This document shows, piece after piece, positions 2,732 to 28,730 of a stretch of 50,141 nucleotides of DNA. The notes under the pieces were generated by a model. That model was not told where the DNA came from. It did not search any database and worked only from the letters and a program-made list of their open reading frames with translations. Within the stretch, counting starts at the first letter, position 1. Every line of letters begins with the position of its first letter. The translations under genes were made by a program, and so were the position numbers. This DNA is from a virus: the IMG/VR virus record IMGVR_UViG_3300017991_000021, positions 1 through 50,141 of that record, one strand, 5' to 3'.

Positions 2732-2810
2732 AGTATTCGAGGGCTTCGTGTTTGTTGTGTTCTTCCTGGCAATCCTGTGGGCCGTGCTCAACGGTCTGGT
2801 TCATTTCTGA
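2691..2810 (+). CDS. 39-aa single-span membrane protein
   Basis: A short gene starting at ATG 2691 with GAGAGG 7 bases upstream and ending TGA 2808-2810. The product begins with a basic amphipathic segment (MVKWLLRKIS) followed by one very hydrophobic helix (residues about 18-33, FVFVVFFLAILWAV). It directly precedes a membrane-anchored protease gene, so it may partner with it. A pinholin-like role is possible, but nothing specific supports it. Confidence 0.6.
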   Translation: MVKWLLRKISAILEVFEGFVFVVFFLAILWAVLNGLVHF

Positions 2811-2833
2811 TTCAACACCCGAGGAAAATTGGA

Positions 2834-3841
2834 ATGAAAGTCAAGCAACGAATCCTACGGCTGGAACGAAGGCTCAACGTGTACCGCAAGGATGCGCGCG
2901 AAGATTCCTGCGCGGTCTTTTGGTCGCTCCGGGTACTGATTGGTATTACGCTCGTCATTGCGATTCTGTTTGGTGGTATTGCTTCTGGTGCTGAGATTGA
3001 TCCGTGGGAGTTACAACAAAACACCGTAGTTCTTACTGACGGCAGCGGCCACGGGTCCGGTGTTCTTTGGACACGAGAAGACGACGGTAAGCGAACCACG
3101 TTCATCTGGACGGCCGCTCATGTCGCTGACATGTGGATGCGCCCCGATGGCTCGTTCCGTGAAGTCGATGTCTTGCAAGGCGGGAAGCACGCACGGGCCA
3201 GGGTTCTTCGCTGTGGCGATTATGAAGTGGACACGGATTGCGCCGTCTTGGAAATCATCGCAGGGAACATGGAGGGAACGGCGCACTTTTATCGTGCGTT
3301 CAAGCATGTAAAGCCAGGTCAGCGCATTGTACATTGCGGAACCCCGCTGAACATTGGATGGAATGAGCGCCTCGTGTCCTACGGCCGCTTCTCGTACATC
3401 GACCGACTGTGCGAAGGTCGCCCTCTAACGAAACCGCGAAAGCTCGATCAGGTTGACTTGACGGCATACCCTGGATGCTCCGGCGGCCCTGTGGTCGATC
3501 TTGAGGACGGCGGGATCGTGGGTCTGGTGATTCTCGGCTCGCGGCCCGGTATCCATTGCATCGAGCCGACGCGGTATATCTACGAATGGTGCAAGACTCA
3601 CGATTGCCTCTGGGCCTTCGATCCTGAGGTATCTATACCACGGGATCGTTTTGCGTGGCCCGGTGACGTGATGCGCCGCCCGGATGCGTGGCAGTACCGC
3701 GATGCCGACCAGCGATGGGGCGACCCGGCTCCTGAACCTGAACCGGAACCTGCGCCCGAACCAAAACCAAGGTTGGTGCCGCCTACCGACGCTGCTACCG
3801 AGCCCGAGTTGCCATGCGTGGTGAGAGGTCAGGCCGCGTGA
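2834..3841 (+). CDS. Membrane-anchored trypsin-like serine protease
   Basis: 335 aa from the ATG at 2834 (GAGGA 8 bases upstream; an in-frame ATG at 2777 lacks a site). Residues 32-52 form a single membrane span or signal anchor. The protease domain follows, with GHGSG at 72-76, the His of TAAHV (His96), Asp135 in TDCAVL and Ser216 in GCSGGPV: a complete trypsin/HtrA-type triad. No PDZ domain follows; the C terminus is a Pro-Glu repeat and then disordered. It is predicted to act outside the cytoplasmic membrane. It lies between the candidate small and large terminase genes, an odd place for such an enzyme. Virion maturation, envelope processing or anti-host roles are all possible. Confidence 0.88.
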   Translation: MKVKQRILRLERRLNVYRKDAREDSCAVFWSLRVLIGITLVIAILFGGIASGAEIDPWELQQNTVVLTDGSGHGSGVLWTREDDGKRTTFIWTAAHVADMWMRPDGSFREVDVLQGGKHARARVLRCGDYEVDTDCAVLEIIAGNMEGTAHFYRAFKHVKPGQRIVHCGTPLNIGWNERLVSYGRFSYIDRLCEGRPLTKPRKLDQVDLTAYPGCSGGPVVDLEDGGIVGLVILGSRPGIHCIEPTRYIYEWCKTHDCLWAFDPEVSIPRDRFAWPGDVMRRPDAWQYRDADQRWGDPAPEPEPEPAPEPKPRLVPPTDAATEPELPCVVRGQAA

Positions 3842-25530: not shown

Positions 25531-26103
25531 ATGGGTAACATTCAGCCGGGGAGTATTATCGGGTTTAGTGGTAGCGCTGCCCACAATGCCCTGATTAACT
25601 TGGGGACTTACGGGATTCCTGGGTGGAGTCTGAGTCACGTCGGTATCATCGCTTGCGGTCCATGCCGGAAGCCGCTTCTGTTTGAGTCCTTGTTCTCGTG
25701 CGAAGAGCCCTGCGAAATCCTCGGTCGGCAGGTCAGCGGCACTCAAGCTCACACACTGCAAAGCGCGATAGAGCGAAGCTCTGGGCCCGTCTGGCATTAC
25801 CCGCTGTATCGAGAGCTTTATGACCACGAGGACAAACGACTAAGCGACTTCCTGGTGGACACCATTGGGACGCCCTACGATTACATGGGCGCGTTCCGGT
25901 CGGCCGGGATTGGCTTATCGTGGATTGAGTCGCTCTTTCGCCGACAAGACATGACTAAGATTTTCTGTTCTGAGTGGGTCATGGCCGCTTATGCCTTCAT
26001 TGGCCTTCATGCAAATGGGAACGTTAGCCGATGGAATCCAAACCGACTCACGCGCCGCTTGCGGCGATATGGTGTACTTCTCAAACCGGAGAGGCTGCAA
26101 TGA
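25531..26103 (+). CDS. Permuted papain-like (NlpC/P60-YiiX type) peptidase
   Basis: 190 aa. The order His36 (SLSHVGII), Glu52 (LFES) and late Cys146 (FCSEWVMAAY) is that of circularly permuted NlpC/P60-like enzymes (YiiX/LRAT-like), where His precedes Cys. Such enzymes cut peptidoglycan stem peptides or acyl bonds. No signal peptide is seen. It is the first gene after the virion set and the repeated promoter-like element, and could be the endolysin or a virion muralytic enzyme. The stop overlaps the next start. The ribosome site is poor: GAGG is only one base from ATG. Confidence 0.75.
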   Translation: MGNIQPGSIIGFSGSAAHNALINLGTYGIPGWSLSHVGIIACGPCRKPLLFESLFSCEEPCEILGRQVSGTQAHTLQSAIERSSGPVWHYPLYRELYDHEDKRLSDFLVDTIGTPYDYMGAFRSAGIGLSWIESLFRRQDMTKIFCSEWVMAAYAFIGLHANGNVSRWNPNRLTRRLRRYGVLLKPERLQ

Positions 26104-26666
26104 AGAGACTCTGCCTGGTCCTTGCGGTGCTTGTGGCGTTCATCGGATGCGAAAGGCAATCGGTAAAGCGTGTCACTCTGCAATCGCAGGTCGTGAACCC
26201 AGAGCGGCCAGTAGTGAACTTGCCGGTAAGCTTGCGTCAAGAGAATTGGTTGCGTAGCGGATCGTGCGTACACGCGACATTTGTTTCGCTATTGCGCTGG
26301 CAGAATCGACCTAATACAGCGAATTGGTGGCGCAGGACTCATGGCGGGGGCGAGTACCCAGACCACTTTGCTCGCCAGTTGGATGTTGCGAATATCCGCT
26401 ACGCGCAGATTACGAATGGCGATGTGTCGTTTCTCGAATGGGCCTGTCGCACTAGACGTGGCTGCGGTATCACCGTTAAGGGCGGGCGGCACATGGTAGC
26501 GCTCGTTCACCTGGATTCCAAGTGGGCCTGCCTTCTCGATAACAACAGCGTCGAGAAATACATTTGGCTTCCCAGAGCAACCCTGATCGCTGAATGGAAA
26601 GCCAGCTACGGATGGGCAGTCACCCCGATCTACACGCCTGCGGCGCCGTTGCCGTTGGTTTCGTAA
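26100..26666 (+). CDS. Lipoprotein with papain-like cysteine peptidase domain
   Basis: 188 aa from ATG 26100, which overlaps the previous TGA and has GGAGAGG 5 bases upstream; a longer in-frame start is not supported. Residues 1-17 are a lipoprotein signal ending in the lipobox VAFIGC with Cys17. A papain or C39-like triad follows: Cys56 (SGSCVHAT), His131 (GGRHMVAL) and Asp147/Asn148 (LLDNNS). It should be lipid-anchored on the outer face of the cytoplasmic membrane or on the outer membrane. Such an enzyme could degrade host envelope proteins, act in lysis, or block superinfection. Unusual for a phage. Confidence 0.8.
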   Translation: MKRLCLVLAVLVAFIGCERQSVKRVTLQSQVVNPERPVVNLPVSLRQENWLRSGSCVHATFVSLLRWQNRPNTANWWRRTHGGGEYPDHFARQLDVANIRYAQITNGDVSFLEWACRTRRGCGITVKGGRHMVALVHLDSKWACLLDNNSVEKYIWLPRATLIAEWKASYGWAVTPIYTPAAPLPLVS

Positions 26667-26688
26667 CCCTCTTCACAGGAGAGAGAGT

Positions 26689-27402
26689 ATGGTTCGGTTC
26701 CTTCTTTGCGCAGTGGCGATTCTCGCCATTGCGGCCCCGTGCTTGACGCTCGCCGCCGATGGTGTGCTAGTCAAAGAGCGGGTTGTGAACTTGCCTCAGG
26801 ACGGCAGTAAGTGGTACGTGAGCCTCTACGGTGACAAGGACGACCCCACGCTCGGTGAATTGGAGCGATGGTTTGATTCGCACGTTGGCTTGATTGACCT
26901 AGCGAGGCAGACGCATTACCGCACGTATCACAGCGACACAACTCTGTTCAAGGAACGGTACGCCAAGGATACGCCAGTCTTGCCAGCGGTGAAAATCCAG
27001 CAGGCGAACGGCGTGGTCGTGTACAAAGCCGCCGGCGATCACATCCCGTATTCGCCTGACGCGCTCTATACCGCTATGGCGAACGCTACACAGAACGTCA
27101 TTGAAACTGGTGGTGTCTTCCGTCGCCCGAAGCGGCCGGTACTGCCGTGGCGCAGGAAGATCGAAGACGAGCTTCGTAACTGCAATCCACAGCCGATTGA
27201 CGATGAACCGCCCCAATTGGACCCGCCGCCTGCGCCCATTGACGACGGTGGGCCGCCTAAACTGGAAATCGAGCCTGAGCCTGAGCCTGAATCGGCTGGG
27301 CTGCCGGCGTGGGCTATTGTGCTCATGGGCGTTGGCTCTGGCCTTGGGGGCATTGCAGTGGGAGGCGTTCGTATCCTCCGCGAAGTTCTCTCGGGCGACT
27401 AG
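26689..27402 (+). CDS. Secreted thioredoxin-fold-like protein with C-terminal anchor
   Basis: 237 aa. Residues 1-22 are a signal peptide. Residues about 35-130 look like a thioredoxin fold (KWYVSLYGDKDD strand, helix, then VLPAVKIQQANGVVVYKAAG with the characteristic Pro before a strand), but no CxxC is present, so it is unlikely to be a redox enzyme. A Pro/Asp/Glu-rich linker (about 165-200) leads to a membrane span (residues about 203-225) with a short cytoplasmic tail. It may scaffold other envelope proteins of this cassette. The fold call is by eye. Confidence 0.65.
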   Translation: MVRFLLCAVAILAIAAPCLTLAADGVLVKERVVNLPQDGSKWYVSLYGDKDDPTLGELERWFDSHVGLIDLARQTHYRTYHSDTTLFKERYAKDTPVLPAVKIQQANGVVVYKAAGDHIPYSPDALYTAMANATQNVIETGGVFRRPKRPVLPWRRKIEDELRNCNPQPIDDEPPQLDPPPAPIDDGGPPKLEIEPEPEPESAGLPAWAIVLMGVGSGLGGIAVGGVRILREVLSGD

Positions 27403-27474
27403 TCGCTAACACTTTCCTGAATCACGTCATTTTCTCACGTAAGAAACACGAATCTTTCACCCAGGAGTTGCAAC

Positions 27475-27885
27475 ATGAGTCCTTTGGAAGTCACCCTTGT
27501 TTGTGTCCTTTCTGCCCTTGCTGGCTTCGGTTTGATCCGCGCGTACTATAAGCTCGACGAGAAGCGAGAGGACCGCCGGCGCGCCGCTGCGCAACTGGCG
27601 AACGCCCTGTCGAAGATGGGCCTGAAGCGCATCCCCGAAATCCTGATCGCCTATTCGGTCGGTGACTACTCGGGCATGGTACAGCAGATCGCCGAGTGTG
27701 TCAGGCTGTTCCTGGCCGGCGAGGAAGCCGTACTAGCTGAGTTCAACGAGGTTTTCGAGCGCGTGCTAACTGCGAAGCTCAAGACGGAATCCGGCCGTGT
27801 CTTCCTCGCTGCGAAGCTGGCCGACGCCGTGAAGCCCGATGATCCCGAGGTCGTCAAGAACGCGCCGAAGGCCAAGGCCGCCTAG
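27475..27885 (+). CDS. Membrane-anchored helical protein
   Basis: 136 aa. One N-terminal membrane span (residues 5-23), then a charged helix (DEKREDRRRAAAQLANAL) and several amphipathic helices, ending in a basic Lys/Ala tail. AGGAG stands 8 bases before ATG. The topology (short outside or inside end, one span, coiled region) would suit a spanin or holin partner, but no lysis motif is visible. It belongs to the cassette between the papain-like peptidases and the terminator. Confidence 0.65.
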   Translation: MSPLEVTLVCVLSALAGFGLIRAYYKLDEKREDRRRAAAQLANALSKMGLKRIPEILIAYSVGDYSGMVQQIAECVRLFLAGEEAVLAEFNEVFERVLTAKLKTESGRVFLAAKLADAVKPDDPEVVKNAPKAKAA

Positions 27886-27889
27886 CGAA

Positions 27890-27907
27890 TCACTGGCCGG
27901 TCAGTGA
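27890..27907. promoter_or_regulatory. Imperfect palindrome upstream of thioredoxin gene
   Basis: TCACTGGCC and GGTCAGTGA are inverted copies with one mismatch, directly after the preceding stop codon. A small operator or a leader hairpin is possible. No promoter hexamers stand out next to it. Confidence 0.3.
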
Positions 27908-27993
27908 GCCAGGTCCGACCACAGATGCGGCGTGCTCGTGGCATTATTGCGGCGGGCTCGTCGCCAGGTCGGGCCCCTTCTTGGAGCCAAGCT

Positions 27994-28392
27994 ATGTTCA
28001 AGGACTGGATTGCCATGTTCCTAATGACGATCGCAGCCACAGTGCTCGTGTGGTCGCTGATCGTCATGTTAGTGGCAAGCCTAGGTTGCGAAAAGCAAGC
28101 TCCAGCACGGCCCCCGCAGCCCGAGCCACCTACGCCAGCCGTCGAAGTCGTGGCCTTCACGGCGGCGTGGTGTGAGCCGTGTAAACGCGCCAAGCCCATC
28201 CTCGATCAGATCGAGAGGGCTGGCGCTCTGGTCTGGCAATTCGACGTGGACGAGTACCCCGAGCGCGCTAAGAACTGGGGTGTCAAGGCCGTGCCGACAT
28301 TCTTCCTGTTCCGGCCAGACTGTGCGGTGCTCCAGCTGCACAATGCAGCCGAATTACTAAGGCTGGTTCAACAGGCACTCGGCAAGGGGTGA
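27994..28392 (+). CDS. Thioredoxin-like lipoprotein
   Basis: 132 aa from ATG 27994 (TTGGAG 7 bases upstream), preferred over an earlier in-frame start that would put 30 basic residues before the signal. Residues 1-32 are a lipoprotein signal ending in VASLGC with Cys32. After a Pro-rich linker the thioredoxin domain has the active site WCEPC (Cys60, Cys63) and the cis-proline in AVPTFFLF. The protein is short but complete. Anchored outside the membrane, it could reduce or shuffle disulfides in host envelope or phage proteins, possibly with the neighbouring Cys-rich peptidase lipoprotein. Confidence 0.85.
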   Translation: MFKDWIAMFLMTIAATVLVWSLIVMLVASLGCEKQAPARPPQPEPPTPAVEVVAFTAAWCEPCKRAKPILDQIERAGALVWQFDVDEYPERAKNWGVKAVPTFFLFRPDCAVLQLHNAAELLRLVQQALGKG

Positions 28393-28396
28393 GTTC

Positions 28397-28660
28397 ATGG
28401 ATTGGGCAGCACTGGGTATCGTCCTTGGCGCGGCTGGTTTGGTGTGCCCGTGGGTATTTAAGGTTCATGGCAAGCTGGCCGTTCTCACCGAGCAGATGGG
28501 GGAGGATGGGAAGTTTGCCGTGTTGGCCGCGCAGATCGAGCGCATTGAAACTCTCCTCACGCAGGGTAATGGATACCCTACTAGATGCGCCGTCCATGAA
28601 GAGCAGATTATGACACTGCGGCGCGATGTGGACGGTCTGTGGAGTGCCAGGGCAGGGTAG
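28397..28660 (+). CDS. Small membrane protein with helical tail
   Basis: 87 aa, starting four bases after the thioredoxin stop. One N-terminal membrane span (residues 3-22) is followed by a predicted coiled coil (AVLAAQIERIETLLTQ) and a C-terminal helix (EEQIMTLRRDVDGLW). The layout resembles small XhlA-like or holin-associated proteins that sit next to lysins. It is the last gene before the terminator, so a lysis role (holin accessory or spanin-like) is plausible but unproven. Confidence 0.65.
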   Translation: MDWAALGIVLGAAGLVCPWVFKVHGKLAVLTEQMGEDGKFAVLAAQIERIETLLTQGNGYPTRCAVHEEQIMTLRRDVDGLWSARAG

Positions 28661-28700
28661 GCCAGGAACCGGCCGAAATCGTGCGAGGCTTGCTGGTATA

Positions 28701-28730
28701 AGGCCACCGGACTTCCGGTGGCCTTTCTTT
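28701..28730 (+). terminator. Rho-independent terminator of the rightward unit
   Basis: AGGCCACCGG (28701-28710), loop ACTT and CCGGTGGCCT (28715-28724) form a perfect 10-bp stem followed by TTCTTT. It lies 40 bases after the last envelope-cassette gene and ends the late transcript before the separately promoted recombinase. Confidence 0.9.

Follow-up and report, generated by a model that had tools for sequence, protein, structure and literature searches.

A probable late lysis module of exported peptidase and thioredoxin-fold proteins in phages of Planctomycetota

The virus record IMGVR_UViG_3300017991_000021 of IMG/VR was analysed over its whole length of 50,141 bases (the window). Besides a replication module and an integrase, it encodes a terminase, a major head protein and a giant LPD38 protein. 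From position 25531 to 28660 of its plus strand lies a compact block of six genes combining exported peptidase and thioredoxin proteins, which is the subject of this report, and all six open reading frames were confirmed. The block is situated 3' of the LPD38 gene, the last structural gene, and 5' of a strong intrinsic terminator (28700 to 28725, plus strand; an 11-pair stem with 8 G-C pairs, then TCTTT), which is followed by the integrase. Terminator-like sites in the window proved to be no more numerous than in shuffled sequences, and this stem was by far the longest. Searches for relatives with the sequence of gene 2 alone gave 33 loci; a profile gave 90, of which 80 were kept. All genes of the block were then mapped with hidden Markov models on 82 loci, including the window and one genome contig, some of the loci being truncated. 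Export features were scored by crude hydropathy and a motif count, not by SignalP.

The peptidase at the centre of the block is encoded by gene 2 (26100 to 26666, plus strand). Its corrected start lies within the ATGA in which gene 1 ends, and 50 of 69 relatives have the same overlap. No Pfam family reaches its cut-off on gene 2 and the Pfam C39 model gave no match at E values up to 1; a match to JSRP (0.012) was set aside as hydrophobic and low-complexity. Annotated phages searched with genes 1 and 2 yielded no matches. Profile searches of the sequences in the Protein Data Bank (PDB) brought no useful match for genes 1, 2 or 3, so that a fold search was needed. The AlphaFold model of gene 2, built from 25 relatives and with a core confidence score (pLDDT) above 90, showed a papain fold in Foldseek searches of the PDB, with ComA, PCAT1 and 3erv, a C39-like peptidase of B. 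anthracis, among the matches (probability 1.00, best E 2.7e-3). The closest folds were C39 peptidases, and other papain-fold enzymes matched as well. Among the viral fold matches (best E 2.3e-3), phage lysozymes, endolysins and Lysin A were found among the better ones, and lysins of Synechococcus, Gordonia and Mycobacterium phages among the neighbours; a wall hydrolase of the phi29 gp13 type and peptidases carried on virions were further matches. Cys56, His131, Asp147 and Asn148 are all invariant in the 25-sequence alignment. The catalytic cysteine motif is present in 77 of 77 homologues, an N-terminal hydrophobic stretch in 72 and a lipobox-like motif, with Cys17 as the lipobox cysteine in the window, in 61. 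The first-pass annotation had seen here a lipoprotein papain-like peptidase with the catalytic residues Cys56, His131 and Asn148. The fold, the lipobox, Cys56 and His131 stood up to analysis; to judge from sequence, the third catalytic residue is more likely Asp147 than Asn148, because it lies 16 residues past His131 and an aspartate is found at that spacing in 66 of 68 homologues. In C39 peptidases the catalytic aspartate follows the histidine by 16 residues.

Gene 1 (25531 to 26103, plus strand) resembles the permuted papain-like amidases of family C92 (YaeF/YiiX) and looks cytosolic, 62 of 63 homologues having no N-terminal hydrophobic stretch. His36 in a conserved SHVG and Cys146 in a conserved FCSE are invariant, and the histidine precedes the cysteine, which is the permuted order. 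The C92 model PF05708 scored 0.082 on the window's protein and matched 4 of 22 members, the best at 7e-4 and all under the curated cut-off. The order of the invariant pair agrees with the permuted papain-like character assigned at first pass; membership of C92 is only suggestive. A match to PHROG 1128, named 'enoyl-CoA hydratase', was discarded since the family was judged to be misnamed.

Two of the remaining genes have the thioredoxin fold, one of them without the redox motif. Gene 3 (26689 to 27402, plus strand) has a signal peptide, a thioredoxin fold without CxxC, a proline-rich linker and a C-terminal transmembrane helix. Its model has strands and helices in thioredoxin order with a core pLDDT above 90, and Foldseek retrieved thioredoxins (probability 1.00, best E 6.2e-4). 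No CxxC was found in any of 82 homologues, 80 of which have an N-terminal hydrophobic stretch and 81 the C-terminal transmembrane helix. Gene 5 (27994 to 28392, plus strand) is a membrane- or lipid-anchored thioredoxin with WCEPC (Pfam Thioredoxin, 3.4e-12); CxxC is present in 68 of 68 homologues, a cis-proline-like motif in 58 and a lipobox-like motif in 62. With 61 of 77 for gene 2, this makes lipidation usual and not universal. The reading frame of gene 5 is open from a GTG at 27904, and the ATG at 27994, which has GGAG upstream, is the more likely start. Gene 4 (27475 to 27885, plus strand) encodes a single N-terminal transmembrane helix and a helical domain; it matched nothing in Pfam or PHROG and was assigned to no family, and 79 of 80 homologues have the N-terminal hydrophobic stretch. 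Gene 6 (28397 to 28660, plus strand) encodes 87 amino acids with, from sequence and hydropathy, one N-terminal transmembrane helix and a likely coiled coil. The first descriptions of genes 3, 4 and 5 as a secreted CxxC-less thioredoxin-fold protein with a C-terminal span, a membrane helical protein and a lipoprotein thioredoxin agree with these results. That of gene 6 as a small membrane protein holds for its helix, but the gene is not a constant member of the block.

Genes 1 to 5 occur in one order in 61 of the 82 loci, gene 3 in all 82 and gene 4 in 80, a linkage far beyond chance. The association proposed at first pass is accordingly found in the relatives as well, and the peptidase fold of gene 2 and the thioredoxin fold of gene 3 were both upheld. 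A terminase of the GpA type (phrog_675) and a portal gene follow directly 3' of the block in most relatives. The block is thus a compact unit of the late region, lying before the terminase in most relatives and after the structural genes in the window, where the terminator stands behind gene 6.

As an unbiased sample, loci were also selected on the terminase alone, and 30 of these had at least 5 kb upstream. Genes 1 to 4 were present in 25 of the 30, 24 of them with genes 1 to 5 and one with genes 1 to 4. Of the other five, four (L131, L144, L181 and L197) have in this position a different secreted peptidase with papain motifs, together with a secreted CxxC thioredoxin. The motifs QD[IL]GDC, a histidine and NSWG are found in most of these peptidases, as is a twin-arginine-like signal. 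This alternative set, which recurs, also holds a PKD-like secreted protein and small membrane proteins. A papain-type peptidase was therefore found in 29 of the 30 loci and a thioredoxin likewise in 29, counts which are not independent trials because the loci are related. In other phages the alternative peptidase occurs without thioredoxin. The alternative peptidase of L181 (4150-5649) is interrupted by an intein at its catalytic cysteine motif.

Beyond the GpA phages, the block occurs in the LPD38-bearing kin of the window (L074, L079, L082 and L094) and, as core genes 2 to 4 only, in L100, L103 and the G410 prophage, which have other terminases and in which the core lies between a small coiled-coil membrane protein and the terminase (gene 4 of L103 was assigned from its position). 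In the gene 2 tree the window and its kin do not form one clade: the LPD38 phages are scattered, well-supported branches force at least four changes between lineages, and the nearest relative of the window is a GpA phage. The block has therefore moved between unrelated phages. Homing endonucleases are found inside the block in several relatives; insertions of HNH and endonuclease VII genes at the junctions of genes 1-2 and of genes 2-3 (L012:7516-8004, L031:8201-8971) are in keeping with homing elements that target conserved genes. In the L100 prophage a TIR-domain-like gene adjoins the core block on the opposite strand (L111:8693-9565), and G410 has a different insert there. L036 and L065 form one contig of 103,138 bases with two copies of block and terminase, which may be tandem phage genomes or an assembly chimera. 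Three large contigs (L005, L010 and L024) have one of their ends exactly at the gene 1 start codon and are possibly rotated circular genomes.

The phages with this block appear to infect Planctomycetota. When 84,980 species of bacteria and archaea were scanned in a way that reaches close relatives only, one match was obtained, a contig of a Pirellulales metagenome-assembled genome. Among 392 Planctomycetota genomes five had a match, one of them weak, and two of the matches are integrated copies, situated inside Planctomycetota contigs of 7.7 Mb and 7.0 Mb. The L100 record contains integrase, head, portal and tail sheath genes and is in part 78% identical to the G410 prophage. The C-terminus of the window's LPD38 protein had no relatives in IMG/VR, and an LPD38 profile gave only weak matches in one Planctomycetota genome; the assignment of the window's own host therefore rests on the block and on G402.

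The usual lysis proteins were searched for in the records of these phages. Amidase_2 was found in none of 18 records, NLPC_P60 and SLT in none of 21, and phage lysozyme, M23 and M15_4 in none of 24, with positive controls matched in every case. No lysis family was among the matches listed in a Pfam scan of the window, nor among the 25 Pfam families listed, out of 26, for L100, a 35-kb integrase-bearing prophage. Candidates for a holin are gene 6 and, in L100, a protein of 90 amino acids with coiled coil and transmembrane helix. A conserved gene of about 69 amino acids 5' of gene 1 was rejected as a holin, being zinc-ribbon-like and devoid of a transmembrane helix, and in the main lineage the short reading frames 3' of gene 5, which lack such a helix too, were likewise not accepted. 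With regard to a spanin, gene 3 has a stalk and a transmembrane helix, but its fold is that of thioredoxin. That no holin was identified in the main lineage, no spanin pair was recognised and six hydrolase families were absent from 18 to 24 records is in line with the statement of the first-pass annotation that this is not a usual holin-endolysin-spanin set.

Taken together, these observations make it probable that the block is a late lysis module of Planctomycetota phages with a composition not described before. Several points weigh against this. The evidence is computational throughout, from folds, export signals and active-site conservation to gene order, host phylum, exchange between lineages and the lack of several usual lysins. 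Foldseek support for gene 2 is modest (2.7e-3 in the PDB and 2.3e-3 among viral proteins, with TM-scores of about 0.5). The absence of hydrolases covers six families, CHAP, Amidase_3, GH25, GH108 and novel lysin families not having been searched separately; the GH19 search is uninformative, as its own positive control gave no match, so GH19 is not excluded, and the completeness of the records is not established. The window was scanned with Pfam and PHROG without a spanin appearing, and no spanin pair was recognised. The main lineage does not conserve gene 6, and the surroundings of its block showed no two-helix holin, which leaves the release step without a clear membrane-opening part. L086 and L087 have no recognisable gene 5, and L141, a phage with the same terminase, has a thioredoxin only.

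Other functions for such a set of proteins have to be weighed against lysis. Lipoproteins such as Cor exclude superinfection, and an anchored peptidase and thioredoxin might similarly change envelope proteins and block attachment or injection of other phages, as superinfection exclusion or lysogenic conversion. All products except that of gene 1 look exported or membrane-bound, and the window and L100 are temperate as judged by their integrases. A very weak match of gene 2 to the Cor PHROG (0.36) was also seen, but it is limited to the signal region, and the block, almost universal within one phage lineage, sits next to the terminase in the late region, whereas morons are patchy. We consider this function unlikely. 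Lysis is favoured over it because of the position before the terminase, the lack of the usual lysins among the families searched, and the replacement of the block by an analogous peptidase and thioredoxin. The first pass had left lysis or envelope remodelling and a block to superinfection side by side; that interpretation is partly supported, and the balance now tips towards lysis, which we infer from sequence.

A loosened wall from which virions leave slowly or via vesicles would agree with the lack of a clear holin in the main lineage, and release of a planctomycete phage of 21.9 kb without host lysis has been reported (PMC10945688). Tailed phages, however, usually lyse their hosts, to which the lysin-like folds of gene 2 also point; release without killing, or envelope remodelling, seems distinctly unlikely to us. 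A role in entry, in which the peptidase and its thioredoxin-like neighbours would be injected or particle-borne and open the wall at infection, is very unlikely. The block of the window does follow the giant LPD38 protein, and virion-borne peptidases and the phi29 gp13-type hydrolase are among the fold matches of gene 2, but conserved signal peptides and lipoboxes suit export from the infected cell rather than virion parts, and in other lineages the block lies away from the tail genes.

For lysis by this block we infer the following division of labour. Gene 2 would cross the inner membrane, become lipid-anchored and cut the envelope at peptidoglycan cross-bridges or at wall protein, so that its substrate could be either the peptidoglycan peptide or a protein of the wall. 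Papain-type enzymes depend on a reduced cysteine, which a thioredoxin located at the same membrane could provide: gene 5 might keep the cysteine of the peptidase reduced, break disulfides of envelope proteins, or both. That it aids lysis by reducing the peptidase or a disulfide-rich wall protein is conjecture. At the level of a guess, gene 3, whose thioredoxin fold is redox-dead and stands on a proline-rich stalk, may serve gene 2 or gene 5 as a tethered adaptor, and gene 4, with gene 6 or the small coiled-coil membrane proteins elsewhere, may supply membrane partners for timing or membrane opening; gene 6 is possibly a holin-like or accessory part. In most lineages gene 1 could act as a second hydrolase freed from the cytosol. 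A more specific idea, which we regard as doubtful, is redox-assisted proteolytic lysis, in which the thioredoxin reduces and the cysteine peptidase cuts a disulfide-rich protein envelope, the target polymer being wholly or partly protein and not peptidoglycan, and C39-like and C1-like families both having been recruited beside a thioredoxin. Planctomycete walls have been reported to consist of protein with a high content of cysteine and proline, which disulfides stabilise (PMC3035269), although lysozyme-sensitive peptidoglycan sacculi have now been shown in planctomycetes (PMC4432640).

The window encodes one further peptidase, a trypsin-like, membrane-anchored protein (2777 to 3838, plus strand; Pfam Trypsin_2, 2e-13) which is a likely accessory of the block in this lineage. 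Its gene lies upstream of the terminase in the window, and a homologue immediately follows the block in L079, whereas in L094 and L096 it separates gene 1 from gene 2. Being kept with the block by the window's kin, it adds to the proteolytic theme. A phage Ro60/TROVE protein with a vWA domain is encoded in the 90,714-base record of L017 (L112:2823-4415).

The block resembles the holin-endolysin-spanin cassettes of tailed phages in being a small late unit of an envelope-cutting enzyme and membrane proteins which is exchanged as a whole, and T7-type genomes have lysis genes beside the terminase. It differs from them in that its enzyme is exported and usually lipidated, that active and inactive thioredoxin folds accompany it, and that neither a holin nor a spanin pair is recognised. 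Gene 2 shares its papain-fold, C39-like character with phage lysins such as domain N5 of mycobacteriophage Lysin A, which matches a C39-like peptidase of B. anthracis (PMC3314691), as 3erv is among the fold matches of gene 2. N5 is part of a larger endolysin with wall-binding parts, however, whereas gene 2 is a single exported domain. Like the SAR (signal-arrest-release) and signal-peptide endolysins, gene 2 is predicted to be exported by the host Sec pathway and not through a holin; it differs in its enzyme family, in the lipobox of most relatives and in the phage-encoded thioredoxin partner. The SAR endolysin Lyz of phage P1 is controlled by thiol chemistry. Gene 5 is an anchored CxxC thioredoxin like the cellular TlpA/ResA-type proteins, which are exported and held at the membrane, but it is phage-borne, has CxxC in all 68 homologues and adjoins a peptidase.

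If gene 2 is indeed a lysin, it would to our knowledge be the first one of a phage that is lipid-anchored and has a redox enzyme as partner. Since a full-text literature search for the term 'planctomycete phage' gave no paper, phage exit from planctomycetes seems to be undescribed. If our reading is true, a lysis module of peptidases and thioredoxin would be a natural probe of planctomycete cell integrity and might provide tools for opening these cells.

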